Source of the DNA: a bacterium
GTDB taxonomy: Bacteria; Pseudomonadota; Alphaproteobacteria; Rickettsiales; RI-342
NCBI GenBank assembly: GCA_016124905.1
Contig: WGMV01000032.1
Coordinates: forward strand, 1-48,881
Reading direction: 5' to 3'
DNA length: 48,881 nucleotides
Each line of letters opens with the position of its first letter. Position 1 is the stretch's first letter. The notes under the pieces were generated by a model, which was not told where the DNA came from, ran no database searches, and saw only the letters and a program-made list of their open reading frames with translations. A program made the translations under genes and the position numbers. Below are positions 3,478-46,477 of this stretch, piece after piece.

Positions 3478-3825
3478 ATGTCCAATAAAGTGATTATCGT
3501 TATCGTGATTCTGGCCGCTCTGGTTGCCGGTGCACTGTTCCTTTCCAACAAAGCCCCGCAAGGCACGGATACGACCGCCGCTACCGGCGAAGCTCCGATG
3601 GAAGCCACCGGTGAAGCTGCTCCGGCCACCGATGCTGCTGCTCCTGCTGAAGCCCCGGCTGCTGATGCCGCCGCCGCTGCTGAAGCTGCTCCGGTTGACG
3701 CCGCTCCGGCTACCGATGCCGCTCCGGCTGTTGAGCCCGCTCCGGCTGCTCCGGCTGCTGAGAACGTCGCCCCGACCCCCGAAGCCGCTCCCGCTACGGA
3801 AGCTGCTCCGGCTGAAGCTCACTAA
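3478..3825 (+). CDS. membrane-anchored Ala/Pro/Glu-rich protein
   Basis: This 115-residue protein has an N-terminal hydrophobic helix at 5-22 with few preceding residues and no clear cleavage site. The rest is low-complexity sequence built from Ala, Pro, Glu, Asp and Thr, in degenerate repeats such as EAAPA and DAAPA. It is probably anchored in the inner membrane with an extended, acidic periplasmic tail that could span the periplasm or tether something. AGGAGG lies at 3467-3472, five bases before the ATG, and a strong terminator follows. A function cannot be assigned from such composition. Similar Ala/Pro-rich proteins are common and poorly conserved. Confidence 0.8.
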   Translation: MSNKVIIVIVILAALVAGALFLSNKAPQGTDTTAATGEAPMEATGEAAPATDAAAPAEAPAADAAAAAEAAPVDAAPATDAAPAVEPAPAAPAAENVAPTPEAAPATEAAPAEAH

Positions 3826-3896: not shown

Positions 3897-4559
3897 TCAA
3901 TAAGGAACATAAGGCCCGCCATGGCGGAACAGCGTGGCCGCCAGGCTTTCCGCTTCGCTGAGGTCCCAGATAGGGCACAGGATAACCGGATTGCCAAACG
4001 CTCCGGGAATATCGGAACTGCTGGATGAATGCCCCTGCGATTCGGCGCGTTCCTGTTTCATCGGCATGCTCAGCCCCATGAGGGCATAATCCTCGGCATG
4101 ATAGGGAGAGGGTTCAAGCTCATTCCCCAAATCGCAAAACGCCTCCATTTCCACATCGGTGCCATCGAAGCGCCCCACACAGGCGATGCGGTCGCCAAAG
4201 CTGGCTAAATAGGCGCGCTGGTCTCCGGTAAGGGTCAATGCCGCCACCGTGTCGTTCCATTCATTCAGATAGTGTTCCAGCCGCGTGTTATCGGCGCCGA
4301 TTCGGTTTAGCCATTCATCCCAGTCAAGTTCGGCGGCTCCGGGCATCATGCGCGCGGTGAGCAGGTAGGTCGTTTGTATCATCACCTGCTGAAACCGGCA
4401 TTTCAGTTCCTCGCGGGAACATTCATCGTCAAATTCATGGATAAGCGCCATTCCGTCGCGATACAAAACCTGCGCCACCGCTTCCAGCCCCCGATGCATG
4501 GCAATCCGGCGGTAATCCTCACCGTCAAACGCGTTTGGCATGGCTCGTGGCTGCGGCAT
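3897..4559 (-). CDS. unknown protein, paralogue of the 6633-7229 product
   Basis: This protein of about 220 residues matches no family I recognise. It is clearly related to the protein encoded at 6633-7229. Both share an N-terminal segment of the type L..VLYRDG..LIHEF and a C-terminal block: DLSEAESLAATLFRHG here, ELSEHESIAANMYRYG there. It is acidic, has no signal peptide or membrane helix, and has a Ser-rich stretch (SSSSS) near residue 180. The frame is open to 4610, which would overlap the preceding gene by 47 bases. The ATG at 4559 still overlaps but starts closer to the paralogue's start, and an ATG at 4541 is also possible. It is the last gene of the cassette. Confidence 0.7.
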   Translation of the reverse strand: MPQPRAMPNAFDGEDYRRIAMHRGLEAVAQVLYRDGMALIHEFDDECSREELKCRFQQVMIQTTYLLTARMMPGAAELDWDEWLNRIGADNTRLEHYLNEWNDTVAALTLTGDQRAYLASFGDRIACVGRFDGTDVEMEAFCDLGNELEPSPYHAEDYALMGLSMPMKQERAESQGHSSSSSDIPGAFGNPVILCPIWDLSEAESLAATLFRHGGPYVPY

Positions 4560-4563
4560 GGAA

Positions 4564-6558
4564 CTATTGCTGGATAGGTGGTGTCTGGTCTGCGCCAAAG
4601 CGGGCAGCATGCCGTGAAATGGCTACATCACCGGGTAATTGTTGCGGCCCGCGGGCAAAGGCAGTGTAATTCATGATCTGGCTGGCAGCATCCAGCGTGG
4701 CGTTTAGCACATTGTCGCCGCACCCCGTCGCCAGGTAAACATGCTTATCGCCATCCATAGTGAAATGAGCACGCACGCTGTAGCGGGGATGTTCCCCGTG
4801 CACCCCATCCGCCATATCGATCACGGCACCTGTCTCCATGGGCACCACGCGGCAATCCGTAATCTGAATTACTCCTTGGATATTCGCCGGTGCATAGTGC
4901 CATTCCTGAAGGCCGGTAATGATGGTTTCCAGATTATAAAGCGCGGTACCGTCCTTTTGCCCATGATAAAGCGTCACGTGAAGCGGCGGTGTGTTAAACC
5001 CTTCACCCAGCGTCAGCGGGTAGGTGCCGTTGCTGCTATGCGTCAAAAACTGCCCCAGCTCATTACCGTCCTGCACAATGTTCAGCGCCAGCGGGGTCGC
5101 ATCGGGGTTGCGCAGGCCGAATCTATCGGCCACCAGCAGCATGGCGTTCACGTTATTACAGCCGCGGTAATGCGTGCCGAATGCCTGCTCCTCCTGTTTC
5201 ACGGTTTCAATCACGTCCTGCGCCTTATGGCGCGCGGCTTCCACATGCTCCTTGCGCAGGTCGAGCAGCAGCCCCATATCTGCCAGCATGAAATAAACGT
5301 TCGAAACCCCGCCCACGGGCGACAGCGCCATCTGCAGCGGCTGCCCCATCATGCCGGAAGGCACGGTATTGTAGGACTGGTCATAATGCCGTGCAAACCA
5401 GTCGAACGCCGCATCGTAATCCATCTGCGCCAGCATGGCCTGATAGGAGCCGTCCTGTTTCATGAATTCATCGAACGCGGCCATTACCCGTGCGCCGTGC
5501 ATCCCTCCCGTGCCCACATAAGCCGCTTCATTACCGATAACCTTTTCCTCCTGGCGTACACCCAGGCGTGCTTCAAAATCCTTTTGATACCGGATCATCT
5601 CCTGCACCTGGCCCTTGTCGAAGCCGCAGCGAATATCCTCCCGGCTGCCAAGCGTCGCGGCTGCCTGGGCAAGTTGCACATTCCCGCGCCGTTCGCCGAT
5701 AGGGCCAACGGTGCAGTCAAAACTGCCCGCACCCGCCTGATAGGCCACCATCATATTGCCCCCGCCCATGCCCAGGTCTTCATGCGTGTGGATATTGAAC
5801 ATACGGGCGGAAAATCCGGGCCACGTCTCTTCATCCGGGTAGCGCGCTTGCAGTTCACCCGCAATCGCCGCTTCCAGCTCGCGTAGAATATCGCCGAGCT
5901 GGTCGGGTGTCACCGCCCCGTCCGTGTCCGGCACGGTAATGCGGTCGATACCCATTTCCAATGCCCGCACCAGCGTACGCACGATATGCGCATGGTTGGG
6001 CGAACCCTCCTCCCGGCCTTCGATCCAGGAACTCAGCAGATGCTCCATGGCAATTTCCATATGCATATCCGCATTGGCTTCGCGAATCATGCGGAAGGTC
6101 CGCTCCAGGCTGGCGATACTTTCATCTTCATCCATGCCGAGATAGTGCAGGTCTTCCACCCGCGCCTTACTCAGCACATTAACCGTGTGGAACGGCTGCG
6201 TGCCAGCGCTGATATCCTTCAGCATGCGGGTAAAAGGGCTGTTGGGGTCCAGCGTTTCGGACCGCTGCAATAAGGTGTAAACCCAGAATTTAGGCGCCAG
6301 CGCCATCATATCGTTATGGCTGCGGATGTAATCCGCCATCGCCTCATCCACTGGGCTGCTATAGATCCAGCCCAGGCACATCATGTCATACCAGTGCTGT
6401 GTCTGCTGAATATGCCGAATGCCCATGGCCGCGGTGCGCGGTGCTTCGCCCTGGTTTCCGTCACGCAGGGTTTCATCCCGCATGATGAAATAATCACGTT
6501 CCAAATTGCTGAAAGCACGAGTCATAATCACACCAGTTCCGTTTCCGGAACAGAACAT
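4564..6558 (-). CDS. DRE-TIM metallolyase, isopropylmalate/homocitrate-synthase-like
   Basis: This protein of about 664 residues has the hallmarks of Claisen-condensing DRE-TIM enzymes. RDETLRDG (27-34) holds the catalytic Arg and metal-binding Asp, VPDTDGAVTP lies near 209-218, the metal-ligand pair HTH is at 257-259, and GPIGERRGN at 285-293 matches the usual GIGERAGN. The C-terminal ~100 residues (around GVIQITDCRV and onward) resemble the LeuA regulatory domain. It is longer than ordinary LeuA (about 510-560 residues), with extra sequence between barrel and C-domain. The acceptor acid is unknown. AAGGA sits six bases upstream of the ATG at 6558. The frame is open to 6582, and an ATG at 6525 is possible. 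No leuB, leuC or leuD is nearby, so a role other than leucine synthesis is likely. Confidence 0.82.
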   Translation of the reverse strand: MFCSGNGTGVIMTRAFSNLERDYFIMRDETLRDGNQGEAPRTAAMGIRHIQQTQHWYDMMCLGWIYSSPVDEAMADYIRSHNDMMALAPKFWVYTLLQRSETLDPNSPFTRMLKDISAGTQPFHTVNVLSKARVEDLHYLGMDEDESIASLERTFRMIREANADMHMEIAMEHLLSSWIEGREEGSPNHAHIVRTLVRALEMGIDRITVPDTDGAVTPDQLGDILRELEAAIAGELQARYPDEETWPGFSARMFNIHTHEDLGMGGGNMMVAYQAGAGSFDCTVGPIGERRGNVQLAQAAATLGSREDIRCGFDKGQVQEMIRYQKDFEARLGVRQEEKVIGNEAAYVGTGGMHGARVMAAFDEFMKQDGSYQAMLAQMDYDAAFDWFARHYDQSYNTVPSGMMGQPLQMALSPVGGVSNVYFMLADMGLLLDLRKEHVEAARHKAQDVIETVKQEEQAFGTHYRGCNNVNAMLLVADRFGLRNPDATPLALNIVQDGNELGQFLTHSSNGTYPLTLGEGFNTPPLHVTLYHGQKDGTALYNLETIITGLQEWHYAPANIQGVIQITDCRVVPMETGAVIDMADGVHGEHPRYSVRAHFTMDGDKHVYLATGCGDNVLNATLDAASQIMNYTAFARGPQQLPGDVAISRHAARFGADQTPPIQQ

Positions 6559-6632
6559 AGTCATTCCTTGTGAAAAATCCATGACAAAAGAAAGGCTTGC
6601 CCCATATGGCGCAAATCCGCCATTACCAGGAC

Positions 6633-7229
6633 TTAAGGGGTAAAAATTGAGCCGTAACGATACATATTAGCTGCAATGCTCTCATGCTCGCTCAGTTCCA
6701 GGAAAGGGCGCATAATGCGCGGGCTGCCCATCAGGCCGTCCTGAAGGGGCGCATGGTGGGTAACATTGAGAACGGCCTCTTCATCCGGTGTGTCATAGTC
6801 CACTGGATTGCTGAAAAGGCCCGTTGCAACCGCGTGCAGATAAAGCGCTTCTTCACCCGTCACTGCATGGCAAACCAACTGCTGCATGGCGGTGCCGAAA
6901 CGTGCCAGAAACGGCCCATGATCCCCTTTTAAGCCGCTTGCTTCAACCGCTTTGTACCATGCATTCAGTTCCCGTTGCGTGTCTTCATATAAACGTGCGA
7001 GCCGGGCGGGCTGGTGCACCGCTTCGCTCTCATGGTATCGGGCGCGGGCATCCAGCAAGGTATGGCAGCGCATATGAAGCAAGGATAAGGCCGACATCAC
7101 CGAATCAGGCGGCAGATACGCATGAATGATGGCGGAGGCATCCTGAAACAGCACATCCATGGAGGCTTTCAGGCAGCTTCTGATCAATTCCCGCTCACGG
7201 AACTCTCCAGGAAAATTCGTAATATCCAT
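6633..7229 (-). CDS. unknown protein, paralogue of the 3897-4559 product
   Basis: This soluble protein of 198 residues is of unknown function and is the first gene of the DRE-TIM cassette. It shares with the 3897-4559 protein an N-terminal L..VLFQDA..IIHAY segment and a C-terminal RPFLELSEHESIAANMYRYG segment. The middle is mostly helical and divergent. The frame is open to 7337, but that would run through the terminator at 7294-7324. The ATG at 7229, with GGTGG three to four bases upstream, is the sensible start. The two paralogues could be partner subunits or regulators of the enzyme between them. Confidence 0.72.
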   Translation of the reverse strand: MDITNFPGEFRERELIRSCLKASMDVLFQDASAIIHAYLPPDSVMSALSLLHMRCHTLLDARARYHESEAVHQPARLARLYEDTQRELNAWYKAVEASGLKGDHGPFLARFGTAMQQLVCHAVTGEEALYLHAVATGLFSNPVDYDTPDEEAVLNVTHHAPLQDGLMGSPRIMRPFLELSEHESIAANMYRYGSIFTP

Positions 7230-7293: not shown

Positions 7294-7324
7294 AAAAAAG
7301 CCCGCCCCAATGGGGGCGGGCTTT
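7294..7324 (-). terminator. rho-independent terminator, minus strand
   Basis: AAAGCCCGCCCC and GGGGCGGGCTTT pair around AATG (7297-7324). On the minus strand the hairpin is followed by U-rich sequence. It ends the 7350-7745 transcript and separates it from the DRE-TIM cassette. Confidence 0.9.
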
Positions 7325-7349
7325 CTGGGTTCAACAACCTGAGATCAGG

Positions 7350-7745
7350 TTATTCTTTGGATGTGGAGCGGTCAAGCACCACCTTGCCATCCACTTTTTT
7401 CTTCTGGGTGGTTTCGGTATTGTTGCCGTGCTCGTCCTGTTTCACGTGGGTTTCGGTTTCCACGGTGGACTTGTTCATCAGCCCTTTCGGATCCTTGACC
7501 GATTTCGTTTTGACCGTCACTTCCTTGCTGCCGTCGCGGTCCACGTCCACTTCGGTTTTGGCTTCGTTTTTCACGTCCGTGCCCATGGCATCGGTGGATT
7601 TTTCGGTCACTTTTTTCTCGTAATTGCCTTTTGCATCTTTTTCGATGCTGGTTTCAGCCTTGTAGGTTTCCTTGTCGGCTGCAATGGCCGGGCTAGCCAC
7701 GGCAAACATCAGTGCGGCAAGGGAAATGGTGGTAACGGCTTTCAT
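7350..7745 (-). CDS. exported Lys/Thr/Glu-rich protein
   Basis: This 131-residue protein has a standard signal peptide (hydrophobic core AALMFAVASP, likely cleavage after AIA at about 22). The mature region is very hydrophilic and rich in Lys, Thr, Glu and Asp, made of alternating short strands such as VKTKSVKD and VETETHVKQD. It is probably periplasmic. AAGGA lies eight bases before the ATG. I recognise no catalytic motif or family. Position next to a glycine-zipper lipoprotein and other stress-type genes suggests an envelope role, which is inference only. Confidence 0.75.
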   Translation of the reverse strand: MKAVTTISLAALMFAVASPAIAADKETYKAETSIEKDAKGNYEKKVTEKSTDAMGTDVKNEAKTEVDVDRDGSKEVTVKTKSVKDPKGLMNKSTVETETHVKQDEHGNNTETTQKKKVDGKVVLDRSTSKE

Positions 7746-22979: not shown

Positions 22980-24563
22980 TCAGGCGGCACTGCTGGGCTC
23001 GCTGGTTTTCGTCGGCTCAATGCTGGCCAGCAGCTTGGACAGTTCCTTGAAGTCAACCGGTTTGACGAAATGGTGATGAAACCCGGCTTCCCGGGCTTCG
23101 GTCTTGTCGCGCTCCTGCCCCCAGCCCGTCTGGGCGATCATCACCGTATGCTGCAGCCGTGGGTTTTTGCGAAGTTCGCGGCACACCTCATACCCATTCA
23201 TGCCCGGAAGGCCGATATCCAGCAGAATAACATCGGGCAGAAGCGTCGTCGCTACCTCCAGCGCTTCCTTGCCGTTATGCACCAGTTGAAACCGATGCCC
23301 CACCATTTCCAGCATCCAGCCCGTAGTTTTGGCGGAAGCCACATTGTCATCCACCACCAGCACGGAGAGCGAATGCCCCGCCATCGTTGAGCCGTCGGCA
23401 TCCTTGCTATCCGGCTGCTCCTGTGGCGCTACCGAAGGCAGAGACAGGGTAAAGCAGCTTCCTTTATTCAGGCCGCTGCTTGTCACCGCAATGGTGCCGC
23501 CATGCATTTCCACCAGCCGTTTGACCAGTGCCAGCCCGATGCCGAGCCCTCCCTGCGATCGCTCCAGATGACGGTCGATCTGGGTGAAGAGATCAAACAC
23601 GCGCGGCAGCATCTCGGCGGGAATGCCTAGCCCGTTATCGGCGACTTCCAGAACAGCCGATGCCCCATCCTTGCGTGCCCTCAGGGTAAGGGTGCCGCCA
23701 TCGGGTGTGTATTTCGCCGCGTTATTGAGCAGGTTGCTGACGATCTGCGCCAGCCGTGTCATGTCCGCGTCCACCCATAGCGGTTCCTCCTGCATCTCAA
23801 GTACCAGTGTGTGCTTGCTTGCCTCGATCAAAGGCTTGCTTGCCTCAATCGCCGCCTGCACGGCCGACTGCAGTGTTATGCGCTCCTTACGCAGGTCGAT
23901 TTTTCCCTGACTGATGCGCGACACATCGAGCAAATCATCGATCAGCCGCACCAGGTGCGTCAACTGCCGTTCCATCATGTCGCGGATTTTCTCCGCCACG
24001 TCGCCGGTGGGTGACATGCTGAGTATCTGCAATCCATTGCGGATGGGCGCCAGCGGGTTGCGCAGCTCATGCGCCAGCGTGGCGAGGAATTCATCCTTGC
24101 GGCGGTCGGCCTCTTTCAGGGCATCGGCATAGGCTTTCAACTGATCGCGGTGGTTGGCCAGCAGCTGCTGCTGGCGATACAGCTCAAAAAACACCTGGGA
24201 TTTGCTCTTCAGCACATCCGGCTCAATCGGCTTATGGATGAAATCCACCGCACCCGCTTCATAACCGCGAAAGCGCCTTTGCCGGTCCGCGCTTCCGGCG
24301 GTCAGAAAAATAATGGGGATGCGCCGCGTGCGTTCCGTTCCACGCATCAGCTCCGCCAGTTCAAACCCGTCCATGCCGGGCATCTGCACATCCATCAGCG
24401 CCAGCGCCACCTCATGCTTCAACAGCAGCTCCAGCGCCTCCGGGCCGGATTGCGCCTTAAGCAGCACCAGCCCGTCGCGCTTCAGCAGCGCTTCCAGCGA
24501 CAGGAGGTTCTCCTCCAGGTCGTCCACCAGCAGAAAATAAACAGGTTCTGTGGAAGTGTTCAT
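22980..24563 (-). CDS. response regulator-histidine kinase, REC-HK-REC
   Basis: This 527-residue protein has an N-terminal receiver (Asp58, LMDVQMPGMDG). A coiled segment precedes the phospho-acceptor His165 (LAHELRNPLAPI). A HATPase domain has DNGLGIP and GLGIGLALV, and a C-terminal receiver from about 400 has VVDDN and LLDIGLPGMNG. The HELRNPLAPI type of kinase is often encoded beside CheB/CheR-type genes in proteobacteria. Its start overlaps the CheB stop by four bases (ATGA). It could accept phosphate from the large upstream kinase through its first receiver and relay it. Confidence 0.93.
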   Translation of the reverse strand: MNTSTEPVYFLLVDDLEENLLSLEALLKRDGLVLLKAQSGPEALELLLKHEVALALMDVQMPGMDGFELAELMRGTERTRRIPIIFLTAGSADRQRRFRGYEAGAVDFIHKPIEPDVLKSKSQVFFELYRQQQLLANHRDQLKAYADALKEADRRKDEFLATLAHELRNPLAPIRNGLQILSMSPTGDVAEKIRDMMERQLTHLVRLIDDLLDVSRISQGKIDLRKERITLQSAVQAAIEASKPLIEASKHTLVLEMQEEPLWVDADMTRLAQIVSNLLNNAAKYTPDGGTLTLRARKDGASAVLEVADNGLGIPAEMLPRVFDLFTQIDRHLERSQGGLGIGLALVKRLVEMHGGTIAVTSSGLNKGSCFTLSLPSVAPQEQPDSKDADGSTMAGHSLSVLVVDDNVASAKTTGWMLEMVGHRFQLVHNGKEALEVATTLLPDVILLDIGLPGMNGYEVCRELRKNPRLQHTVMIAQTGWGQERDKTEAREAGFHHHFVKPVDFKELSKLLASIEPTKTSEPSSAA

Positions 24564-25177
24564 AACGCGGCTTTCATGCTTTTTTGATAGGAATGTTTCA
24601 GGGTTGAGAGAATATCCTCCAGACTGAGCGCCAGGGCATGACGGCAGGCTTTCAGCGCGGCTTCCGGCATGGCGCTGGCGAAGGCGAGCTCCGGCTTCTG
24701 CACCAGCACGCGTCCGCCTGCCTCCTCCACCGTGCGTGCGCCGTGCGCGCCGTCCTCGTTGGCTCCCGTCAGCACGATGGCGGTCAGGCCAGGGCCATAG
24801 GCATCCGCCGCCGTCTCAAACAACACATCGATGGATGGCCGCGAAAACAGCACCGGCTCCTCGGTGGAAAGCGAAACCCGTTTATCGGGCTCCACCAGCA
24901 GGTGATAATCGGGCGGGGCGAAATAAACGGTGCCGCTTCGGATGGGCTCCTTATCCTCCGCCTCTTTCACCGAAACCTTGCATTTATCTCTGAACAGCTC
25001 GGCCAGGATGCTTCGTTTATCCGGCGGTATATGCACCACCACCATCACGGGGCAGGGGAAATCCTTCGGCAGCTTTGGCAGCAGCTGCGACAGCACATCC
25101 ACCGCCCCCGCCGATGCGCCGATGACAACGGCCTGGGGCATATCCGTTTTACCATTCTCAAGCAGATGCTTGTTCAT
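24560..25177 (-). CDS. cheB: CheB methylesterase domain protein without receiver
   Basis: This 205-residue protein is only the CheB catalytic domain, which hydrolyses gamma-glutamyl methyl esters (and deamidates glutamines) on receptors. The triad is visible: Ser22 in IGASAG, His49 in VVHIPP and Asp142 in GANEDGAHG. The usual N-terminal receiver is missing, so control by phosphorylation must come from elsewhere, or the enzyme is constitutive. It overlaps cheR by four bases and the following REC-HK-REC gene by four bases. No chemoreceptor, cheA, cheW or cheY is in the window, so this is not a standard chemotaxis cluster. Confidence 0.92.
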   Translation of the reverse strand: MNKHLLENGKTDMPQAVVIGASAGAVDVLSQLLPKLPKDFPCPVMVVVHIPPDKRSILAELFRDKCKVSVKEAEDKEPIRSGTVYFAPPDYHLLVEPDKRVSLSTEEPVLFSRPSIDVLFETAADAYGPGLTAIVLTGANEDGAHGARTVEEAGGRVLVQKPELAFASAMPEAALKACRHALALSLEDILSTLKHSYQKSMKAAL

Positions 25178-26001
25178 ACGATGGCCCGCCTCTGATAGAT
25201 GCGCTCCTCGCGTGAGAATTCATCAAACGCGTCATTATGCGCCGAGAAGCGGAGATTCTCTTTAGACCCCAGCCCGAGAAAGCTCTTGCGCGGCAAGGCG
25301 TCCTTGAACAGGCCGATGGCGCGGTCCTGCAGCTCACGGTCAAAATACTTCAGCACATTGCGGCAGGAGATGTACTGCATTTCCGCAAACACCGCATCGC
25401 TCACCAGGCTATGGTCGGAAAACACCGTCCGCTTGCGCAGGCTTTTGTCGAAATGCGCCGCGCCGTAAGCGGCCGTGTAATACTCCGACAACGAGGTCTT
25501 CCCGCCGGACAGGCGATGATTCTCGGTAAACAGCTTGATGCGGTCCAGCCCATAAACGCCCGCCTCCGCCTTGCTGAGCGCATCGGGGTTGATATCGGTT
25601 GCATAGAACATGGTGCGTTCTTCCAGCCCCTCCTCGCGAAAGAGAATGGCAAAGGAATAAAGCTCCTCCCCCGTGCTGCATCCGGCTATCCAGACTTTCA
25701 GCGAGGGGTAGGTGCGCAGATGCGGCACTACTTTCTCGCGGATGGCTTTGAAATAAGGTGGGTCACGGAACATCTCGCTCACCTGCACCGTCAAAAAGGA
25801 AAGCAGCTTGGGCAGCGCATGCGCGTTATGCAGCACCATGTCCTGCAATTGCGAATAATTCTGGCAGTTGAAATGCTCCTTCGCCTGCTTAAGGCGGCGC
25901 TTGATGGAGGCCATGGCATAGCCGCGGAAATCGTAATGATACTTCTGGAACAACGCCTCCAGAAGCAGCTTCAGTTCGATATCCTCCACCTTTTCGTTCA
26001 T
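25174..26001 (-). CDS. cheR: CheR-type protein-glutamate methyltransferase
   Basis: This 275-residue SAM-dependent methyltransferase methylates glutamates of receptor-like proteins. The N-terminal helical domain holds IKRRLKQA, the conserved SEMFRD is at 75-80, the SAM loop GCSTGEE is at 107-113 and TDINPDAL follows. The C-terminal EMQYISCRNVLKYF matches the family's D.I.CRNVLIYF. The ATG at 26001 has GAGG five bases upstream; a GTG at 26019 would overlap the preceding gene. It lies two bases after the large hybrid kinase and overlaps cheB. Its substrate is unknown; see the finding on the kinase coiled coil. Confidence 0.92.
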   Translation of the reverse strand: MNEKVEDIELKLLLEALFQKYHYDFRGYAMASIKRRLKQAKEHFNCQNYSQLQDMVLHNAHALPKLLSFLTVQVSEMFRDPPYFKAIREKVVPHLRTYPSLKVWIAGCSTGEELYSFAILFREEGLEERTMFYATDINPDALSKAEAGVYGLDRIKLFTENHRLSGGKTSLSEYYTAAYGAAHFDKSLRKRTVFSDHSLVSDAVFAEMQYISCRNVLKYFDRELQDRAIGLFKDALPRKSFLGLGSKENLRFSAHNDAFDEFSREERIYQRRAIV

Positions 26002-26003
26002 GG

Positions 26004-29000
26004 CTACCTCGGCATCCACACGCGCACGAGCGACAAGAGCTTGTCCACATCCAGCGGCTTGGCCATGTAGTCATTGGCCCCCGCGTCAAGGCAGCGCTCC
26101 TGGTCGTCCTTCATGGCCTTGGCTGTCAGCATGATCACCGGTAGCTTTTTCCAGCCGGAGCGCTTGCGTATCTCACGCGTTGCCGTCAGCCCGTCCATCT
26201 CGGGCATCATCACATCCATCAGCACCAGGTCGATACGCTCATCCGGCTTGTCCATGCGCGCCTCCAGCACATCCAGCGCCTCGCGTCCGTTCCGGGCGAT
26301 ATGCACCACCGCCCCGCGTGGTTCCAGGATGTTGGTGAGCGCGTAAACATTACGCACATCGTCTTCCACCACCAGGATGTTACGTCCTTCCAGCACCGCG
26401 TCGCGGTTTCGTGCTTTCTCCAGCATTTTCTGCTGCTCGGCCGGCAGCGTGGCCACCACCTGGTGCAGGAACAGCGTCACCTCGTCCAGCAGCCGTTCAG
26501 GCGATTTCGCCCCTTTGATGATGATGGATTTGGAATAGCGCCGCAGGCTCTGTTCCTCGTTCGCCGAAAGGTCGCGCCCCGTATAGACGATGACCGGCGG
26601 AAAGGAATAGGCGTCCTCCTTGCTCAAGGTCTCCAGCAGCGAATAGCCCGATGCATCCGGCAGGGAGAGATCCAGCACCATGCAATCGAAGGTGGATTGC
26701 TTCAGGCGTTTCAGGCATTCCCCGGCGGTGCCCACCGCCACCGTTTCCACCTCGTGCGAGCCAAGCAGCTTCTGCATGCTGTCGCGCTGTACGGCATCGT
26801 CCTCGACAATCAGCACGCGGCGCATCCGTTGCGAAAGCTTTGTCTCCAGCTGCTGTAGCGCCTTCAGCAGTTCGTCCCGTTTCACGGGTTTGAGCATGTA
26901 GCCCACCGCGCCGAGCGAAAGCGCCGTCTGGGTATAGTCGCTACCCGATACCACATGCACGGGGATATGCCGCGTGCGCACGTTGCGCTTCAACCTGTCC
27001 AGCACGGAAAGGCCGGAATTATCCGGCAGCCCCACATCCAGCACCACCGCATCGGGGCGGTAATGGTCCGCCACGGCAAGCGCGTCTTCCGCCGTGGAGG
27101 CCATCAGGCACTGGAAGTTCAGCTCATGCGCCATGTCATACAGAATCCGCGCGAAAGACTCGTCATCCTCCACCACCAGAATCGTGTGCCGGTCGCCCTT
27201 CAGGTGATCCCTGTCATCCTCAATACTCGGCGCAGGAAGGGCAGATTCGCCTTTTTTCTGCTTGCCTTTCTTCGGCTTAACGGCGGTTTCGGCAATTGGT
27301 TCGATTTCCTGTTCGCTTTGGGAGATTGCCACCACACGCACATGGTCCGGCACCAGGCTCGGATCATAGGTTTCAGGAATTATGACGGTGAAGCTGCTGC
27401 CCTTGCCGGGTTTGCTTTTCAGTTCAATACTGCCGCCCAGCAGACGCGCCAGCTCGCGCGAGATGGAAAGGCCAAGCCCCGTGCCGCCGTATTTACGGCT
27501 GATGGTGCCATCCGCCTGGCGGAAGGCCTCAAAAATCAGCTGCTGTTGTTCTTTCGCAATCCCGATACCCGTGTCGCTCACCGTCAGGGCCACCTGGTTG
27601 ACGTGATAGCGCGCGATGGAAAGCTCCACCTTTCCCTTCTCGGTGAATTTAAGCGCGTTGGAGATCAGGTTGCGCAGCACCTGCTCCAGCCGCTGCCGGT
27701 CGGTTTCCACCGTCATGGGGCAGTTGGGCGCCACCTGCACGTCAAATTTCAGTTTCTTCTGCGCGGCCACCTGCTTGAAGCTATGCGTCATGTCCTTGGC
27801 CAGCTGCTCGATCAGCACGGGCTCCGGCCTCACTTCCATATGCCCGGCCTCGATTTTGGAAAGATCGAGAATATCGTTGATCAGCGCCAGCAGGTCATTG
27901 CCGGAAGACTGGATGGTCTGCGCGAATTTCACCTGCTCTTCCGTCAGGTTGCCTTGAGGGTTATCCGCCAGCAGCTTGGCCAGGATGAGCGATGAGTTCA
28001 GCGGTGTGCGCAATTCATGCGACATATTCGCCAGAAAGTCCGATTTATACTGGCTGGCGCGTTCCAGTTCCTTCGCCTTGAGCTGCACCTCCGTGCGTGA
28101 CCGTGCCAGAATGTCGCGCTGGTTTTCCAGCTGTTGCGTCTGTTCCTCCAGCTGGGAGTTGGTCTGCTCCAGCTCCGCCTGCTGCTGCTCAAGCCTCACC
28201 TGGGATTCCTTCAGGGCACGGCTCTGCTCCTCCAGTTCTTCGTTTGAAACGCGAAGCTCCTCGCTTTGCGACTGCAGCTCCTCCGACTGGCGCTGCGTTT
28301 CCTCGAGCAGGTTCTGCAGGCTGGCCCGATAATTGGCCGATCGCACGGCAACGCCTATTGCATCGGATACTTTCCTCATCAGCTCTATGGTTTTTTCATC
28401 TAGCGGATTCATGAAGCCGAGTTCGATCATCGCATTCACATCCCCGTCCACGGCCGCCGGTGCGATGAGCAGATAGCGAGGCTTGCCATATCCCAGTGCC
28501 GAGCTGATGGTGAGGTACCCGTCCGGCACCTCGTTAAAGCTCATGATGCGGTTATCCTTCGCGGCTTGGCCAATCAGCCCGTCGCCCATTTCAAAATGCT
28601 GCAGCGTTTCATCGCCGGTGGAAATGCCGTAGGTCGCCACACGCTGAAAGCTGCCACCCTCTTTGATGAAAAAGGCACCCGCCGGCGCATTGAAATACTG
28701 CGCCAGAAAGGTGATGACGCTAACGCCCAGTTCCATCGCGCTTTGCTCGCCTAACATGGAGCTGCTAAGGCCAACCTGCCCGGATTGCAGCCATTCCTGC
28801 CGTTGCCGGGTCAGGGTGGAACGTCGCACCAGAAAGGCCACCACCACTGAAAGGCAAAGCCCAAGCAGAGCCGTCACAATCCCGCCTGCCACCGCGATGC
28901 GATAGGCATTATCCATATCTGCAAACCGTGAGGCGCGGCGTTCGCGTTCCGCCTGTTTCATGGTGTTCACCTGGTCTCGCAGGCCGTCCATCGTCGCCTT

Positions 29001-35422: not shown

Positions 35423-38209
35423 ATGCCCCTAAGCTGGAATGAAATCCGCGCCCGCGCCGCCCGCTTTGCCGCCGATTGGCAGGGCAAAGGGTATGAAAAA
35501 GGCGATACCGCCAGCTTTTACCACGATTTTTTCCATGTTTTCGGCCGCGCCCGGCGCGACGTGAACATCTATTTCGAAAAGCGCCTGAAGCTGGGCGAAC
35601 ACCAACGCGGTTTTATCGACCTTTTCTGGCCGGGCGTGCTGCTGGTGGAACAAAAATCCATGGGCAAAAACCTGGTCGCCGCCCGCGTCCAGGCCACGGA
35701 CTATTTTTTGAGCCTGAAAGAGCGTGAAAAGCCACGCTATATCCTGCTATCCGACTTTCAGACATTCGAACTACTTGACCTGGACACGGGAGAGGAACAC
35801 CACTTCACCCTGTCGGCATTGCCGGAGAAAATCCGCCTGTTCGGCTTTATCGCCGGTTATCAGCAGCAGGCTTATAAGGACCAGGACCCGGTTAACGTGG
35901 AAGCCGCCGGGCTGATGAGCAACCTGCACAACAAGCTGGCCGAAACGGGCTACACAGGCGCCCATCTGGAGCGGCTGCTGGTGCGCATAATGTTCTGCCT
36001 CTTTGCGGATGACACCGGCATTTTTGAGCGTGACAGCTTCTTGCGTTACATCGAGGACCGCACCAGCGAGGATGGTAGCGACTTGGGCCAGCACATGATT
36101 CATTTGTTTCAGATCATGGATACGCCGGAGGCGCGTCGCTCATCATCGTTGGATGAAGACCTCGCACGCTTCCCTTATGTCAACGGCCAGCTTTTTGCAG
36201 AGCGCATCGACATCCCCAGTTTTGACGCAGCCATGCGCGAGGCCCTGCTGACCTGCTGCTATTTTGACTGGAGCCGCGTCTCGCCCGCGCTGTTTGGCTC
36301 GCTCTTTCAAACCGTGATGCTGCCGGAGGAACAGCGCAAAAAAGGCGCCCACTACACCAGTGAGAAGAACATCCTCAAAACCATCCATCCGCTGTTTCTG
36401 GATGAATTGCAGGCCGAGCTGGCCGCCATCAAGGCCGATAAAAGCAGCCGCCGCCAGTCGCGGCTGGAAGCATTTCATACCAAACTTGGCACGCTCACCT
36501 TCATGGACCCGGCCTGCGGCTGCGGCAACTTCCTCATCCTTGCCTACCGTGAGCTGCGCCTGCTGGAAATCGAGCTGCTGGAAGCGCTTTATCCGGCGAA
36601 GGAACGCCAGCGGGTGCTGGATATCCGCGCCCTGTGCAAAGTGGATGTAGACCAGTTCTACGGCATCGAGCTGGAAGAATTCCCCGCCCGCATCGCCGAG
36701 GCCGCCATGTGGCTGGTGGACCACCAGATGAACATGCTGCTATCCAGCGCCTTCGGGCAAAGCCTGGTGCGCCTGCCGCTCAAAAAATCCGCCCACATCA
36801 CGCATGGCAATGCGCTGGAAATTGATTGGAAAACGGTGATTGCACCGGAGAATCTGAATTACATGCTCGGCAATCCGCCGTTTGTGGGCTCAAAATATCA
36901 ATCAGTAGAGCAAAGGGAAGAGCTTGCAACAATCTTCGCAGGTGTTCACGGTGCAGGTGTGCTGGATTATGTAAGCGCCTGGTTTTGGAAAGCCGCCCAT
37001 TTTATTCAAGGCACAAAAATCATTGTGGCGCTGGTATCAACCAACTCCATTACACAGGGCGAGCAGGTGGGCGTGCTATGGCAGCCCATGCTGCAGCGTC
37101 TGGGCATTCATATTCACTTTGCCCACCGCACGTTTAAATGGACGATTGATGAAAAGCGCATCAAGGGGCTGGATATTGCGGCTGTGCATGTGGTGATCAT
37201 TGGTTTTGCCGCCTATGCACCCGAAGAGCGTTGGCTGTTTGACTACGATCAACCCACAGCTGAACCGCACCGCATCCGTGCGGCAAACATTAATCCTTAT
37301 TTGGTGGATGCTGTGAATGTGGTTGTTACAAAGCGCAGCAAACCGATTTGTAATGCTCCAGAAATAGGTATTGGTAATAAACCTATTGATGGCGGTCATT
37401 ACCTTTTCACTACAGAGGAAAAAGCGGAGTTTTTAGTCAAAGAGCCTCAAGCTGCGGTTTATTTTCGCCGCTGGTTAGGATCAGATGAATTTATAAATGG
37501 ATGGGAACGTTGGTGCTTATGGCTTGGCAATTGCCCACCAGAAGCATTGAGGCAAATGCCAGAAGCAATCAAACGTGTTGAGCAAGTTCGGAAGCTTCGT
37601 AGTGAAAGCAAAAGCAAGCCGACTAATGCGATCGCGGCGACACCGACCAGGTTTCACGTAGAAAACATGCCAAGCAATAACTTCTTAATCGTGCCAAAGG
37701 TGTCTTCTGAGCGACGCTATTATATTCCCATAGGACTCTCTGCGCCTGAAACATTATGTAGCGATTTGGTTATGATTGTTTCAAACGCCACCCTCTATCA
37801 CTTTGGCATCCTCACCTCCCTCATGCACAATGCCTGGATGCGGCAGGTGTGCGGCAGACTAGAAAGCCGTTATCGCTACTCCAATACGCTGGTGTATAAT
37901 AATTTCCCCTGGCCAACACCCACCGAGGCACAGCAACAGGCCATCGAAGCCAAGGCGCAGGCCGTGCTGGATGCACGAGCAGAATTCCCCCACGCCACAA
38001 TGGCCGATCTCTATGACCCGCTCACCATGCCGCCCGCGCTGCTAAAAGCGCATCAGGCGCTGGATAAGGCCGTGGACGCCGCCTACCGCAAACAGCCCTT
38101 CGCCAACGAACGCGAGCGCGTAGAGTTCCTCTTCGCCGAATATCAACGCCTCACCGCCCCGCTGGACGTGCCTACCCAAAAGAAAAAACGCAAAACCAAC
38201 GCCGCCTGA
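35423..38209 (+). CDS. MmeI-like type IIL restriction-modification enzyme
   Basis: This 928-residue protein joins cutting and methylation in one chain. The N-terminal nuclease site is Asp66-X9-Glu76-X-Lys78 (IDLFWPGVLLVEQK), exactly the D-X9-EXK spacing of MmeI. A helical spacer follows. The N6-adenine methyltransferase domain has DPACGCGNF (362-370, SAM) and NPPF (484-487, catalytic). The target recognition region (about 620-830) comes next, then a C-terminal helical part ending in a Lys-rich tail. Such enzymes methylate one strand and cut about 20 bases away. DNA in the recognition region is more AT-rich than the flanks: I count 23 G/C in 60 at 37321-37380, versus 37 in 60 at 36481-36540. 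No separate methylase gene is present. Confidence 0.92.
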   Translation: MPLSWNEIRARAARFAADWQGKGYEKGDTASFYHDFFHVFGRARRDVNIYFEKRLKLGEHQRGFIDLFWPGVLLVEQKSMGKNLVAARVQATDYFLSLKEREKPRYILLSDFQTFELLDLDTGEEHHFTLSALPEKIRLFGFIAGYQQQAYKDQDPVNVEAAGLMSNLHNKLAETGYTGAHLERLLVRIMFCLFADDTGIFERDSFLRYIEDRTSEDGSDLGQHMIHLFQIMDTPEARRSSSLDEDLARFPYVNGQLFAERIDIPSFDAAMREALLTCCYFDWSRVSPALFGSLFQTVMLPEEQRKKGAHYTSEKNILKTIHPLFLDELQAELAAIKADKSSRRQSRLEAFHTKLGTLTFMDPACGCGNFLILAYRELRLLEIELLEALYPAKERQRVLDIRALCKVDVDQFYGIELEEFPARIAEAAMWLVDHQMNMLLSSAFGQSLVRLPLKKSAHITHGNALEIDWKTVIAPENLNYMLGNPPFVGSKYQSVEQREELATIFAGVHGAGVLDYVSAWFWKAAHFIQGTKIIVALVSTNSITQGEQVGVLWQPMLQRLGIHIHFAHRTFKWTIDEKRIKGLDIAAVHVVIIGFAAYAPEERWLFDYDQPTAEPHRIRAANINPYLVDAVNVVVTKRSKPICNAPEIGIGNKPIDGGHYLFTTEEKAEFLVKEPQAAVYFRRWLGSDEFINGWERWCLWLGNCPPEALRQMPEAIKRVEQVRKLRSESKSKPTNAIAATPTRFHVENMPSNNFLIVPKVSSERRYYIPIGLSAPETLCSDLVMIVSNATLYHFGILTSLMHNAWMRQVCGRLESRYRYSNTLVYNNFPWPTPTEAQQQAIEAKAQAVLDARAEFPHATMADLYDPLTMPPALLKAHQALDKAVDAAYRKQPFANERERVEFLFAEYQRLTAPLDVPTQKKKRKTNAA

Positions 38210-41421: not shown

Positions 41422-42588
41422 CTATGGCAGGCAGGCGCCGAAATAATGGTTGCTGAAGCTGGTGTTCAGGAATTTGGGATAGGCATTGATGGAGCTGTCC
41501 ACAAAGCCCGGGCACTGGCAGTCGATGCTCGTGCGGCGGTCCATCCCCGCATAGATGGTTCCATTCGACATGGCGTAGTTATATTGCTCCCCGTCCGAAT
41601 AGCTCATGGTCGTGCAGGTTCCGCCGGAAATCTCGCTGGCCAGGCATGGCCCCAGATACAGCGTGTTGCGCGGGCAATGCACCGGCGCCACCAGGGTGGA
41701 GTTGCTGCAATACTGGTCCATCTTCAGAGCGATGTTATAGATACGGTTAGCATGGGTCTGGTAGGCCGCAGCGAAATAACCTACCCAGGTGTCACGCGGC
41801 ACGCGCACGATGCTACGTGCATTGGTGCAGGTCACCGTTCGCGGTTCCACCACGCGGGCGAAGCGCTTGGTCACATAAATATCCCCCTTGGCGCGGAACA
41901 GCACCACATCATCAAAACTCGCGGTCTTTTCGGAATAAGTGAAGCGCCCGTCCAGCCCGCTGCCATTGTCGATGTCGGCGCCCGTATAGCCGCCGGGGAT
42001 GCTCAAGCGCGATCCATCGGCCAGATAGGCGTAATATCCGTTGCGCCCATGGCTGATGAGCACATAAGCCGCACCGCCCGTGGTGTCCGTCAACACCGAC
42101 CCGTCGAGCTTATGCACGTCGATATCCCCATCGACGGACTGGTTCAGCCAGTTATCTGTATGGCGTAAATTGGATGTCAGCTGATAGCTGATGCGCCGTC
42201 CCCAGGCGTCATAGGCATATTCCGGCGGCAGCCCGAGCGTGCGCACCGGCACGATGCCGAGCATCTCCGCCCCGCCCTGCGGCGCCACGCAGGTCATCCG
42301 TGGCGCCGTGGCAGTGCCGCTGTTGGTGGCCATCTCCAGCCCCAGCGCGGCGGAATTATCCGGCACCGCGCCATTCGCCGCGCAGGGCAGGTAACGGTTG
42401 ATGGCAAAAAACCGTTTCAATGCCTGGTCGATCTGTATGAGCCGCTCGCGCGTTTCATCAAATTTCTGCGCATCATTGGCCTGCGTATACACCGACAACG
42501 CGCCGCCCAGCAGCACCCCCAGCACCGCTAGCACCAGGGCGATTTCCAGAAGCGTGTAACCGTGGGATGGGGAATGTCTCATGGTCAT
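41422..42588 (-). CDS. large pseudopilin-like protein
   Basis: This 388-residue protein has a type IV prepilin start: a short basic leader, then Gly10|YTLLEIALVLAVLGVLL with the conserved Glu at +5, so it should be cut and built in by a prepilin peptidase. The large exported domain is shared with the upstream gene: LPCAANG, RTLGLPPEYAYDAWGRR, AAYVLISHGRNG, FDDVVLF. It has many cysteines near the C-terminus (CQCPGF and others), which suggests disulphides. The ATG at 42588 overlaps the previous stop by four bases (ATGA). Such large pilin-like proteins may be tip or minor pilins. No pilus assembly genes are nearby. Confidence 0.8.
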   Translation of the reverse strand: MTMRHSPSHGYTLLEIALVLAVLGVLLGGALSVYTQANDAQKFDETRERLIQIDQALKRFFAINRYLPCAANGAVPDNSAALGLEMATNSGTATAPRMTCVAPQGGAEMLGIVPVRTLGLPPEYAYDAWGRRISYQLTSNLRHTDNWLNQSVDGDIDVHKLDGSVLTDTTGGAAYVLISHGRNGYYAYLADGSRLSIPGGYTGADIDNGSGLDGRFTYSEKTASFDDVVLFRAKGDIYVTKRFARVVEPRTVTCTNARSIVRVPRDTWVGYFAAAYQTHANRIYNIALKMDQYCSNSTLVAPVHCPRNTLYLGPCLASEISGGTCTTMSYSDGEQYNYAMSNGTIYAGMDRRTSIDCQCPGFVDSSINAYPKFLNTSFSNHYFGACLP

Positions 42589-44378
42589 GGTGGCGGTGTA
42601 ATGCATGAGTTGGTAACGGGATCCCACACCAGACCACCGCCGCATGCCGGGTCGCAGGTGAAGGTGATAGTATTCCAGTTAGGCGTGGCACCGCCGCACG
42701 CGGCCTGGCAGACGCCGGTATTGTTGTTCCATACCGGCAATGTCGAGGGGCATGCGCAAAAACCGATACGCCCATTGAACAGGTCATTGGCCTTCATCTT
42801 GCCCAGATGGCTTGTGGCGGCGGGTTTGTTCGGTGAGCTCACCCTGTCATCCGCAAGCGCGGGGTCTTTATATCCAATCGGATTGGGGTTTTTATAAGCC
42901 GTATAGCTACCCGCGCTATTGCCTGAATTGGGATAAAAGCCACTATCGGGTGGAGTACCCGGATCATATTGACTGACAATCACCCCGCCGCCCGTATCCA
43001 CATCCGTGTTAATACCGCCATCAAAATCATCGGTATCCCACAGCGTCCGGTTAAACTTCCGCCCCGTCGCACTGGATGAGCCCGGGCATGCCATCGGGTC
43101 GCCGTTGACGGCAACCTGGCTGTAAGCACTGGTAAGCGCCGTTCCTGCGGCAAGGTTCACCGTCGTGAGGTTCGTACCTGCCGCATAGCTTGAACTCGCC
43201 ACGTTACGGGTAATGGCCCCCCCGCCGACCGGATCGGTGAAGCGAATGCTTCTGCCCGCCGTATAAATATCGGTTTTATCGCCAACAACGGTAAAGCTGT
43301 TGGCATTGATCAATGTCATGCCATGCGACAGCGTGGTAAAGCCCGACCCATTATACACCCCGCTATAAAGCTTGGCGCACACTTCCTGCGTTTCCCACAG
43401 CAGGTCCAGCAGCGCGGCATCCGGCTGCATGCCGGTGGTAAACAAGGCTGTAAGCGTCCCGCTTCCATTGACGCTGCCGGCCTCTGCATTGGTAAACTGG
43501 CTGAGCGTCAGGCTCGCCATATCCTGGCACTCCTCCTGCGAGAAGGGAATCCGGTCGAAATCGGTGGTGGACTGGTTCACCTGGTCGCGCGTTTCGTAAT
43601 AAACGAGATCGTCAAAACTGTTAGAAAAATGGTCGTCCCAGAAATCCGTATCGCCATCGCCATTATGGCGGTTCCGGTCTTCCCTGGCGGAAATGCTCCC
43701 CACGCCTTTCTGCACGCCGGACGGCAGCCAGGCGCCAAATCCGTTCGGGCCATGGCTGATGAGGATATAGGCAGCACTATCCGTAACGGGAATATCGCAG
43801 CTCACCCCGTCGGCACAGTTGCTCGTCGGGTCGGTGGTGCTGATGCTGAGCCAGCCGGACCCGGCACCCGCCGCCCCCGTTCCCTGCTCATAATCCCCGG
43901 CGGAGCAATTGATCGGCTGTCCCACCTGGTTGGCAATCGGCGCGGTGGGGTCAAAATCGCAAATCATGCGCGACACCTGATAGGTGAACAACCGGTTCCA
44001 TCCATCCTGCGCATATTCCGGTGATATGCCGAGCGTGCGCGTGGGGATGCTACCGCGCATGGAATACCTGAAATTCGGCGTGCCCGTATGTTCCCAGCAA
44101 TCCTCCATCCCGTTATTCTGATGGTCTTCGCCATAGGCCGGGTTGGCCGGGCAGGGTAGGCGGCCGTATTTGCTGCGAAAGGCATGCAGCGCCTGGGTAA
44201 CAACGTCCATCCGCTCCCGCGTGGTGGTGATGCGCTGGGCATTTTCGGTGGAAGACGGGGCGATCCAGCTCAGCGTGGCCACCATGGCGGCGGCCAGCAC
44301 GGTCATGAGGACGGCCAGCTCGATCAAGCTGAAGCCGCGACTGTTCCTTCCGCCATGATGCCGGACGCATTTCCCCAT
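42585..44378 (-). CDS. large pseudopilin-like protein, paralogue of the next
   Basis: This 597-residue protein starts with a prepilin signal, Gly15|FSLIELAVLMTVLAAAM, with Glu at +5. The exported part shares blocks with the 41422-42588 product: LPCPANP, RTLGISPEYAQDGWNR, AAYILISHGPNG, FDDLVYY. It is longer because of a beta-rich, Thr/Ser/Gly-rich middle. The C-terminus has Cys-rich repeats with CGG and CDPACGGG. It is probably a surface or periplasmic filament component with a large globular head. The neighbouring gene overlaps by four bases. Confidence 0.8.
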   Translation of the reverse strand: MGKCVRHHGGRNSRGFSLIELAVLMTVLAAAMVATLSWIAPSSTENAQRITTTRERMDVVTQALHAFRSKYGRLPCPANPAYGEDHQNNGMEDCWEHTGTPNFRYSMRGSIPTRTLGISPEYAQDGWNRLFTYQVSRMICDFDPTAPIANQVGQPINCSAGDYEQGTGAAGAGSGWLSISTTDPTSNCADGVSCDIPVTDSAAYILISHGPNGFGAWLPSGVQKGVGSISAREDRNRHNGDGDTDFWDDHFSNSFDDLVYYETRDQVNQSTTDFDRIPFSQEECQDMASLTLSQFTNAEAGSVNGSGTLTALFTTGMQPDAALLDLLWETQEVCAKLYSGVYNGSGFTTLSHGMTLINANSFTVVGDKTDIYTAGRSIRFTDPVGGGAITRNVASSSYAAGTNLTTVNLAAGTALTSAYSQVAVNGDPMACPGSSSATGRKFNRTLWDTDDFDGGINTDVDTGGGVIVSQYDPGTPPDSGFYPNSGNSAGSYTAYKNPNPIGYKDPALADDRVSSPNKPAATSHLGKMKANDLFNGRIGFCACPSTLPVWNNNTGVCQAACGGATPNWNTITFTCDPACGGGLVWDPVTNSCITPPP

Positions 44379-44438: not shown

Positions 44439-44705
44439 TTACGCAGGCGGGTATTCCGCGCGGATAAAGTCATTCACCGGCCCCGGCACCTGATCTCCAA
44501 ACCCCTGGATGATCACATCGCCCGCTTCCCACAGCGGAAAAAAATCATCCCGCCCTTCCATTTCGCGCAGTTTCAGCAGCCCGTCGCCGTCGCAAAGCAA
44601 AAAAGCATAAAACGCCGTTCCCCGCTTATCATGCGCATGCACCTCCACCACGGCCTTATGGTCTTTCAGCAGATGCTTCTCGGCAAATGTCAGGCTGCAG
44701 CCCAT
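44439..44705 (-). CDS. 88-residue unknown protein
   Basis: This 88-residue soluble protein is of unknown function. It has a compact, probably alpha/beta sequence (AVVEVHAHDKRGTAFYAFLL, then GDGLLKLREMEG). The ATG at 44705 shares one base with the preceding stop (TGATG), so translation is coupled to the 590-residue gene. It sits 60 bases before the pseudopilin pair. It may be a partner or chaperone of the 590-residue protein, which is inference from coupling only. Confidence 0.68.
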   Translation of the reverse strand: MGCSLTFAEKHLLKDHKAVVEVHAHDKRGTAFYAFLLCDGDGLLKLREMEGRDDFFPLWEAGDVIIQGFGDQVPGPVNDFIRAEYPPA

Positions 44706-46477
44706 CAGCAAATCTCCGTAACGGGCGGTGTCATGCCCTGGCCGGTGAAAAGCAGCACGCTGGTCATATCCACCTGTGCGGCTTCCAGGCTGGGAATCGC
44801 ATGCGTCAGGGCATTCATCAGGTCAGGCGCCTGGTGCTTCTCGCAAATGCAATGAACCTGCTGCAGAAACTGTGCGGCATCCTGTTTGCTGGGAGTGTGG
44901 CCGTCCAGATGCGCGCCGTAACCATCCAGCAATCCCGCAATTTCCCTTAGCCCGTCAAACCCGATATGTTCCGCCAGCCAGGCGGCGATGGGCGAGCCTT
45001 CCTTATCCTGGTTTCGCCAGTTCGGCGTGGGGCGGTTGCCGTCGCCTGCGTCGCTGCGGTTATGCAGCGCGTTGAGCACCGCTTTTTCATTGTCCGTCAT
45101 AGGAAGGGGCGATTCGGGCAAGGTCATGGCCGCCAGATTTTCCGCCACGCCTTTCATGAAGGGCGCAAGGCTCAGGCTGTCCGGCACGATGCAAGCCATG
45201 CTGCCGAACCGCGCCAGCGCATCCACAATGCTGGCCGACACCAGCTTGGATTGCAGATAAAGCGGCGCAAGTTCAGTCACGGTCAGGGCGAAAGCCTCCT
45301 CCAGAACCGCGCATACGGATGAGGGCGGCACATTGTCAAAGGATTGCAGCAGCCGTCCCGTATTCGCCAAAGGCGCCAGCACCACGCCGTAGCCAATGCT
45401 CAATTGTTTATGAACGAACTGGCAATATTCGGCGGTGCTCAATTCCGCGCCGCCATTATTCATGCGGTGGATTGCGGTGCGGATCACCGGGCTCTGTTCC
45501 GCGGCCAGCGCCCAGGTGCCGACCAGGCAGCCGCGCAGACGCTCGGTCATGGCCTCCGCAGTCTGGGGCAGGGCGCCTTTTTCCTGCGCTTGCTGATAGG
45601 CTCGCTCGCCACCGGCCATGCTCAACACATCGTCAAAGCCCAGCAATGCGGCACCCCGGCAGATGCGCCTGGCAATATCGGTCGGTTCAATGGAGGAGGC
45701 AGGGTCCGTATGCGCCTCAATGGAATCGTGAAGCCGCTCAAAAAACTCGGCGCGTTTGGGAAACAGCGTGGAGGCGATATTGCCAATCACCGTATTGGCG
45801 GCATTGTCGAAGGAAATAGGCCATGAATCCAGCCCGTCCACCCCATGAAGTAATGCGAGTTGATGCACGGCGAACACCGCGCTGATCAGCTCATTGCCGC
45901 CGTTATTCGCGCCGTTGGGCGTGTTATTCGTGCCATCCGCCCGAACGGGAATGGGCAAGTCGATGCCGTCCACCTGTTCATTGACCCCATCCTTATTGAT
46001 ATACCCCACATCCCGGAAAATCTCGCACGCCCTGCGTATATGGGGCGGCGCATCCTCGCGCAGATAAAATCCCGCCGGTTCGCCGCGCTGCTCGAAATAC
46101 TGATCGAAAATAACCTGTGCCTCCACCGGCACGCGATGGTCGGCCTGGGAGTAGAACATATCGTGAAAATCGATGCTGTATTCGCCCAGCAGATGAAAAA
46201 ACTGGTTCAACGGAATGGAAGAAGCAGAAGGCGGCGGTTCCGGCAGATCGGCCAGGGAGCGTTTTTCCTCCCATCCGTTGCGCAGTGCTCCCAGGTGGAG
46301 CTCGCCGTGAAAAGCGCGGTTGCCGTCCGTGCGCACGGTTCGGCCGTCAGGGGAGGCATAGGCGGTGGAAAGCAGGAATATATTATCCTGCAACAGCGAT
46401 GAAACATTGAGCGGCAGGCTGCCTTCGGTATTTAATGACAGTAATTGCCGAACCGTAGTGGCATGGAATTCATACAT
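44705..46477 (-). CDS. 590-residue unknown protein
   Basis: This 590-residue protein has no signal peptide, membrane helix or catalytic motif that I recognise. It is largely helical, with an Asn/Gly-rich segment (TNNTPNGANNGGN) near residue 185. It begins the cluster 590 aa, 88 aa, pseudopilin, pseudopilin. It may be a cargo or cytoplasmic partner of the pilin-like proteins, but nothing in the sequence shows that. An A/T palindrome lies just upstream (46512-46527). Confidence 0.75.
   Translation of the reverse strand: MYEFHATTVRQLLSLNTEGSLPLNVSSLLQDNIFLLSTAYASPDGRTVRTDGNRAFHGELHLGALRNGWEEKRSLADLPEPPPSASSIPLNQFFHLLGEYSIDFHDMFYSQADHRVPVEAQVIFDQYFEQRGEPAGFYLREDAPPHIRRACEIFRDVGYINKDGVNEQVDGIDLPIPVRADGTNNTPNGANNGGNELISAVFAVHQLALLHGVDGLDSWPISFDNAANTVIGNIASTLFPKRAEFFERLHDSIEAHTDPASSIEPTDIARRICRGAALLGFDDVLSMAGGERAYQQAQEKGALPQTAEAMTERLRGCLVGTWALAAEQSPVIRTAIHRMNNGGAELSTAEYCQFVHKQLSIGYGVVLAPLANTGRLLQSFDNVPPSSVCAVLEEAFALTVTELAPLYLQSKLVSASIVDALARFGSMACIVPDSLSLAPFMKGVAENLAAMTLPESPLPMTDNEKAVLNALHNRSDAGDGNRPTPNWRNQDKEGSPIAAWLAEHIGFDGLREIAGLLDGYGAHLDGHTPSKQDAAQFLQQVHCICEKHQAPDLMNALTHAIPSLEAAQVDMTSVLLFTGQGMTPPVTEIC

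Follow-up and report, generated by a model that had tools for sequence, protein, structure and literature searches.

The window analysed here, the whole stretch of 48,881 nt, carries on its minus strand three closely spaced genes, in the order A-B-C and ~3.3 kb in total. The sequence of the product of the middle gene, B, places it among the DRE-TIM metallolyases, closest to the Claisen-condensing enzymes (LeuA, CimA and homocitrate synthase), and A and C encode a pair of paralogues. The explanation that we favour, with slightly more credence than doubt, is that B would be a strongly diverged, lineage-restricted 2-oxoacid/acyl-CoA condensing enzyme, and that A and C would be two related non-enzymatic partners. 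The features of the locus are as follows.

6633-7229, minus strand: gene A, 198 aa (open reading frame and sequence)
4564-6582, minus strand: gene B, 672 aa, or 664 aa from an alternative start at 6558
3897-4559, minus strand: gene C, 220 aa, or 214 aa from an alternative start at 4541
6565-6569, minus strand: AAGGA, Shine-Dalgarno-like, 6 nt before the ATG at 6558 (read from the sequence)
7295-7326, minus strand: strong intrinsic-terminator-like hairpin of 14 bp upstream of A (consensus match only)

The AAGGA at 6569-6565 makes 6558 the likely start of B (664 aa), and for C the start at 4541 gives a closer match to the N-terminus of A than does that at 4559. A and B are separated by ~50-75 nt, B and C by 4 nt when C is counted from 4559. 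The first-pass annotation had described three closely spaced minus-strand genes with small gaps or an overlap. All three open reading frames were confirmed, and so were the gaps, but the overlap of B and C stems from a mechanical reading-frame start at 4610. Because of the terminator-like hairpin upstream of A, which probably sets A-B-C apart, the gene at 7350-7745 probably lies outside the unit. From the close spacing and this hairpin we infer co-transcription, so that within the favoured explanation A-B-C would form a single transcription unit. When the six frames were compared, the codon usage of the A, B and C frames resembled that of the window, and that of the other five frames did not. 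The codon scores of the three genes (0.12-0.16) were lower than those of their housekeeping neighbours (0.25-0.30), which hints that they are accessory or weakly expressed genes. A similar score (0.14) was obtained for the gene at 35423-38209, which encodes a lone, by-eye DNA methylase/restriction-like protein of 928 aa with an NPPF motif.

The assignment of B begins with its match to the Pfam HMGL-like family PF00682 (70.1 bits against a cut-off of 29, E 2.5e-19) and with the presence of the DRE-TIM metallolyase residues R40, D41, H265, H267 and N301. The metallolyase motifs reported earlier are indeed there: RDETLRDG at residue 35, HTHED at 265 and GERRGN at 296. Among the best NCBIfam models were LeuA (at most 63.3 bits, cut-off 517), the NifV homocitrate synthase TIGR02660 (51.8 bits, cut-off 462.9) and CimA TIGR00977 (44.4 bits, cut-off 450). 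B passed none of the curated NCBIfam cut-offs, usually falling short by hundreds of bits, and its identity to the aligned relatives was only 17-25%. A profile comparison with 23 full-length LeuA/CimA sequences nevertheless gave a probability of 99.2% (E 1.9e-19) over residues 31-453, a match that extends beyond the barrel into the post-barrel region. This region is particular to the Claisen-condensing subgroup and supplies a catalytic His.

The residues of the active site are largely retained. In an alignment with 44 relatives, B keeps R40, D41, Q44, E180, T220, H265, H267, the GER/GN residues of 296-301 (including N301) and H362, of which E180 and H362 align with the Glu and the post-barrel His of the Claisen-condensing subgroup. 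Which Tyr partners the catalytic His depends on the alignment: Y380 in the profile comparison, the Tyr of SYNTVP in the sequence alignment. Two positions that are near-universal in the compared enzymes are changed: the Lys of the first barrel helix is missing, and the IE(A/V)GFP segment reads MCLGWIY. Together with the insertions in B, this changed segment would point to a changed substrate pocket. Mutants of Arg89, Glu227 and His388 have been studied in MAM synthase, which belongs to the same Claisen-like subgroup; activity was lost in most of them (PMC11532901). By alignment B has the same catalytic set, its R40, E180 and H362 presumably corresponding to R89, E227 and H388.

The structure model of B (pLDDT 70, pTM 0.73) has a barrel at about residues 30-345 followed by LeuA-like post-barrel helices. 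The barrel superposed on those of isopropylmalate, citramalate and homocitrate synthases with Z 24-26.5 and an rmsd of ~3 A over ~275 residues; because the alignment behind the model contained LeuA-type rows, the modelled fold is not independent proof. Against M. tuberculosis LeuA, residues 30-641 were aligned with an rmsd of ~14 A, and the orientation of the domains differs. In this model, whose alignment had those LeuA-type rows, the C-terminal domain is predicted to be LeuA-like. A Pfam search found no LeuA_dimer domain in B, and hhalign of the C-terminus alone scored no better than shuffles.

Set beside the known systems, B shares with LeuA (M. tuberculosis 1sr9/3hps, N. meningitidis 3rmj) the TIM barrel, the metal and active site of HxH and GERxGN, the post-barrel His and, in the model, the C-terminal fold. 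It differs from LeuA in having only ~20% identity, in the undetected LeuA_dimer domain, in scores far below the LeuA cut-offs and in length. The earlier estimate that B exceeds LeuA by about 100 residues was right in direction and too small, the excess being about 130-150 residues over the 525 and 532 aa of the LeuA and CimA of this genome; extra segments are inserted behind H362 and ahead of the last domain. CimA (LiCMS 3ble) belongs to the same subgroup, forms the nearest clade in the tree and matches the barrel with Z 26. The barrels of homocitrate synthase/NifV and MAM synthase match with Z ~24-26.5. Compared with these enzymes, however, B has an extra C-terminal region, and no nif context was seen among the open reading frames of the window.

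Is B, then, the leucine enzyme? The genome encodes a regular LeuA on contig C8 (818.8 bits, cut-off 729), a CimA on contig C25 (669 bits, cut-off 450) and a LeuC on contig C20 (820 bits, cut-off 560), and because of these three ordinary genes elsewhere B is unlikely to be the housekeeping leucine enzyme and probably is not. In the phylogeny that had been proposed as a check, B fell outside LeuA and adjoined the citramalate synthases with a support of 0.94; the branch leading to B measures 2.6 substitutions per site (median of the terminal branches 0.12), which leaves this placement prone to long-branch error. The genome's CimA grouped with Rhodospirillales sequences, so the host is probably an alphaproteobacterium. 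The proposal of a non-leucine, Claisen-condensing-type enzyme is thus strengthened by its divergence, by its position outside LeuA and by the regular LeuA, CimA and LeuC. The idea of a three-gene pathway fared worse: B is the only recognisable enzyme of the three, and nothing was found to process its product. As noted before, leuB, leuC and leuD are not nearby, none being recognised among the open reading frames of the window.

Several other genes of the window were read from translations of their open reading frames. Sensor histidine kinases and response regulators, several of them hybrid, are densely packed in the segment 10747-29471, which also holds a CheB-like methylesterase at 24560-25177 and a CheR-like methyltransferase at 25174-26019. 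A 590-aa protein without an obvious relative by eye (44705-46477) lies beside a pair of pilin-like proteins (41422-44378) whose N-termini resemble those of type IV prepilins.

The flanking proteins A and C are homologous over their full length (BLASTP 52.0 bits, E 4e-13, 26% identity), as compared with a best score of 23.9 bits among 1000 shuffles of C, and the paralogy first noticed at their two ends is thereby borne out. In a tblastn search of the genome the pair was recovered with E 1.1e-6 and 30% identity. Invariant columns occur in the N-terminal and C-terminal blocks alike; the common C-terminal block reads LSE-x-ES-[IL]-AA-x-x-[FY]-R-[HY]-G, and the conserved C-terminal helix of A is ELSEHESIAANMYRYG, the C-terminal sequence of C DLSEAESLAATLFRHG. 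A whole-genome scan with a pattern for the first half of this block returned only A and C, and no third user. Within the favoured explanation, the two would be products of the duplication of one ancestor.

The profile searches that had been suggested for A and C assigned neither to a known family, with nothing significant in Pfam, NCBIfam, PHROGs, PADLOC or the PDB sequences. For a defence or phage role of A and C, PHROGs and PADLOC likewise offered no match. Marginal matches to A/C elsewhere, at C43, C35 and G076, look like chance, lying in or against unrelated genes (by eye L,D-transpeptidase-like, respiratory complex I and cytochrome oxidase genes). The AlphaFold model of A, made from a two-row alignment and of low confidence (mean pLDDT 60), predicts a four-helix bundle at residues 8-124, a low-confidence linker at 127-179 and a final helix at 181-192. 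A fold search of this model against the PDB returned only generic bundles, none significant (best E 0.21), copper storage proteins and YtfE among them. On this low-confidence model A and C look like helical, non-catalytic proteins, which is consistent with the earlier suggestion of paired subunits or regulators.

The locus appears to be confined to a narrow lineage. Searches of 344 genomes of its order, of 385 genomes sampled from the class and 398 from the phylum and, by protein, of plasmids and phages yielded no orthologue of B; in the order, no other genome had A or C, and A was missing from the plasmids searched. The family was sampled by two genomes, one of them 81% complete. Peptide-pattern scans, which miss relatives with changes in the chosen motifs, found no B orthologue in 85,000 species genomes or in viral contigs (IMG/VR). 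The pattern HxHED-x26-GERxGN occurred in 95 stretches of the species genomes and in none of the viral contigs. The best of the 95 matched B with 77 bits; they had no A/C homologue, and in the tree they fell with ordinary LeuA, CimA and homocitrate-type enzymes. In relatives the lepB-rnc-era order was kept wherever the contig reaches, and no relatives of A, B or C lay near era in the five examined; no match to era was obtained in G008, a genome of the same family. The restriction of A-B-C to this lineage is therefore well supported at the level of the order, and suggestive beyond it. In the window itself, a plus-strand gene between era and A-B-C (3478-3825) encodes a short protein with an N-terminal membrane segment, the remainder being almost entirely Ala/Pro/Glu-rich.

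These data have to be weighed against other readings of the locus. B might be a decaying or non-catalytic copy of a former LeuA or CimA, a pseudoenzyme that acts as a scaffold or merely drifts, with A and C as unrelated neighbours. Its very long branch, the loss of the IE(A/V)GFP segment and of an otherwise universal Lys, and the relatives devoid of B orthologues all fit such a history. Nevertheless, its frame of 672 codons is unbroken with gene-like codon use, and none of the metal ligands has been lost in B, nor have the catalytic Arg, Glu and His or the GERxGN loop. Decay should strike such active-site residues first, so their retention counts against it, and we regard this history as quite improbable. 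It is also quite unlikely, in our view, that the product of B is a known one, made by a second citramalate, isopropylmalate, homocitrate or Re-citrate synthase that was acquired from outside and has diverged, with A and C serving as its chaperones or regulators. The ranking of its models (LeuA, then homocitrate and citramalate synthases) and its place beside the citramalate synthases point that way, but this long-branch placement is unreliable, the shortfall from every curated cut-off is large, and LeuA and CimA are already present in the genome.

A further reading concerns A and C rather than B: they could be an independent pair, for example metal- or stress-related four-helix proteins, that flanks B by chance. 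The generic bundles that were the sole, non-significant fold matches of A would agree with this. By contrast, the close spacing on a common strand behind a terminator-like hairpin, and the finding that within the order both A and C are missing wherever B is missing, argue for an association, and we consider the chance arrangement somewhat unlikely. A functional link among A, B and C is plausible; it rests on a single gene order in one genome, because no orthologues were found that could show conservation of the order or A and C travelling with B.

We return to the favoured explanation of a diverged condensing enzyme with two partners. LeuA, CimA, NifV and MAM synthase form 2-alkylmalate-type products by condensing an acyl-CoA and a 2-oxoacid. 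By analogy of its residues, B would probably bind a divalent metal and a 2-oxoacid; H362 would probably enolise an acyl-CoA, probably acetyl-CoA; and the condensation of the two would most likely yield a 2-alkylmalate-type acid. B probably acts on a substrate other than those of the LeuA and CimA of this genome. A and C are most likely non-catalytic partners, pictured as a helical bundle whose flexible linker carries the conserved C-terminal helix; they would bind to B or to each other and thereby stabilise or regulate B. A bolder version, in which B founds a new Claisen-condensing DRE-TIM subfamily with a new substrate and works only in complex with the A/C pair, has in our judgement an outside chance; we know of no obligate accessory subunits like A and C in the Claisen-condensing subgroup.

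As it stands, the evidence reaches as far as a single genome, in which an orphan enzyme of divergent sequence lies between neighbours that are orphans too. An active B would represent a new branch in a small and well-studied group of carbon-chain-extending enzymes, and would suggest that an enzyme of this kind can become dependent on partner proteins of its own.
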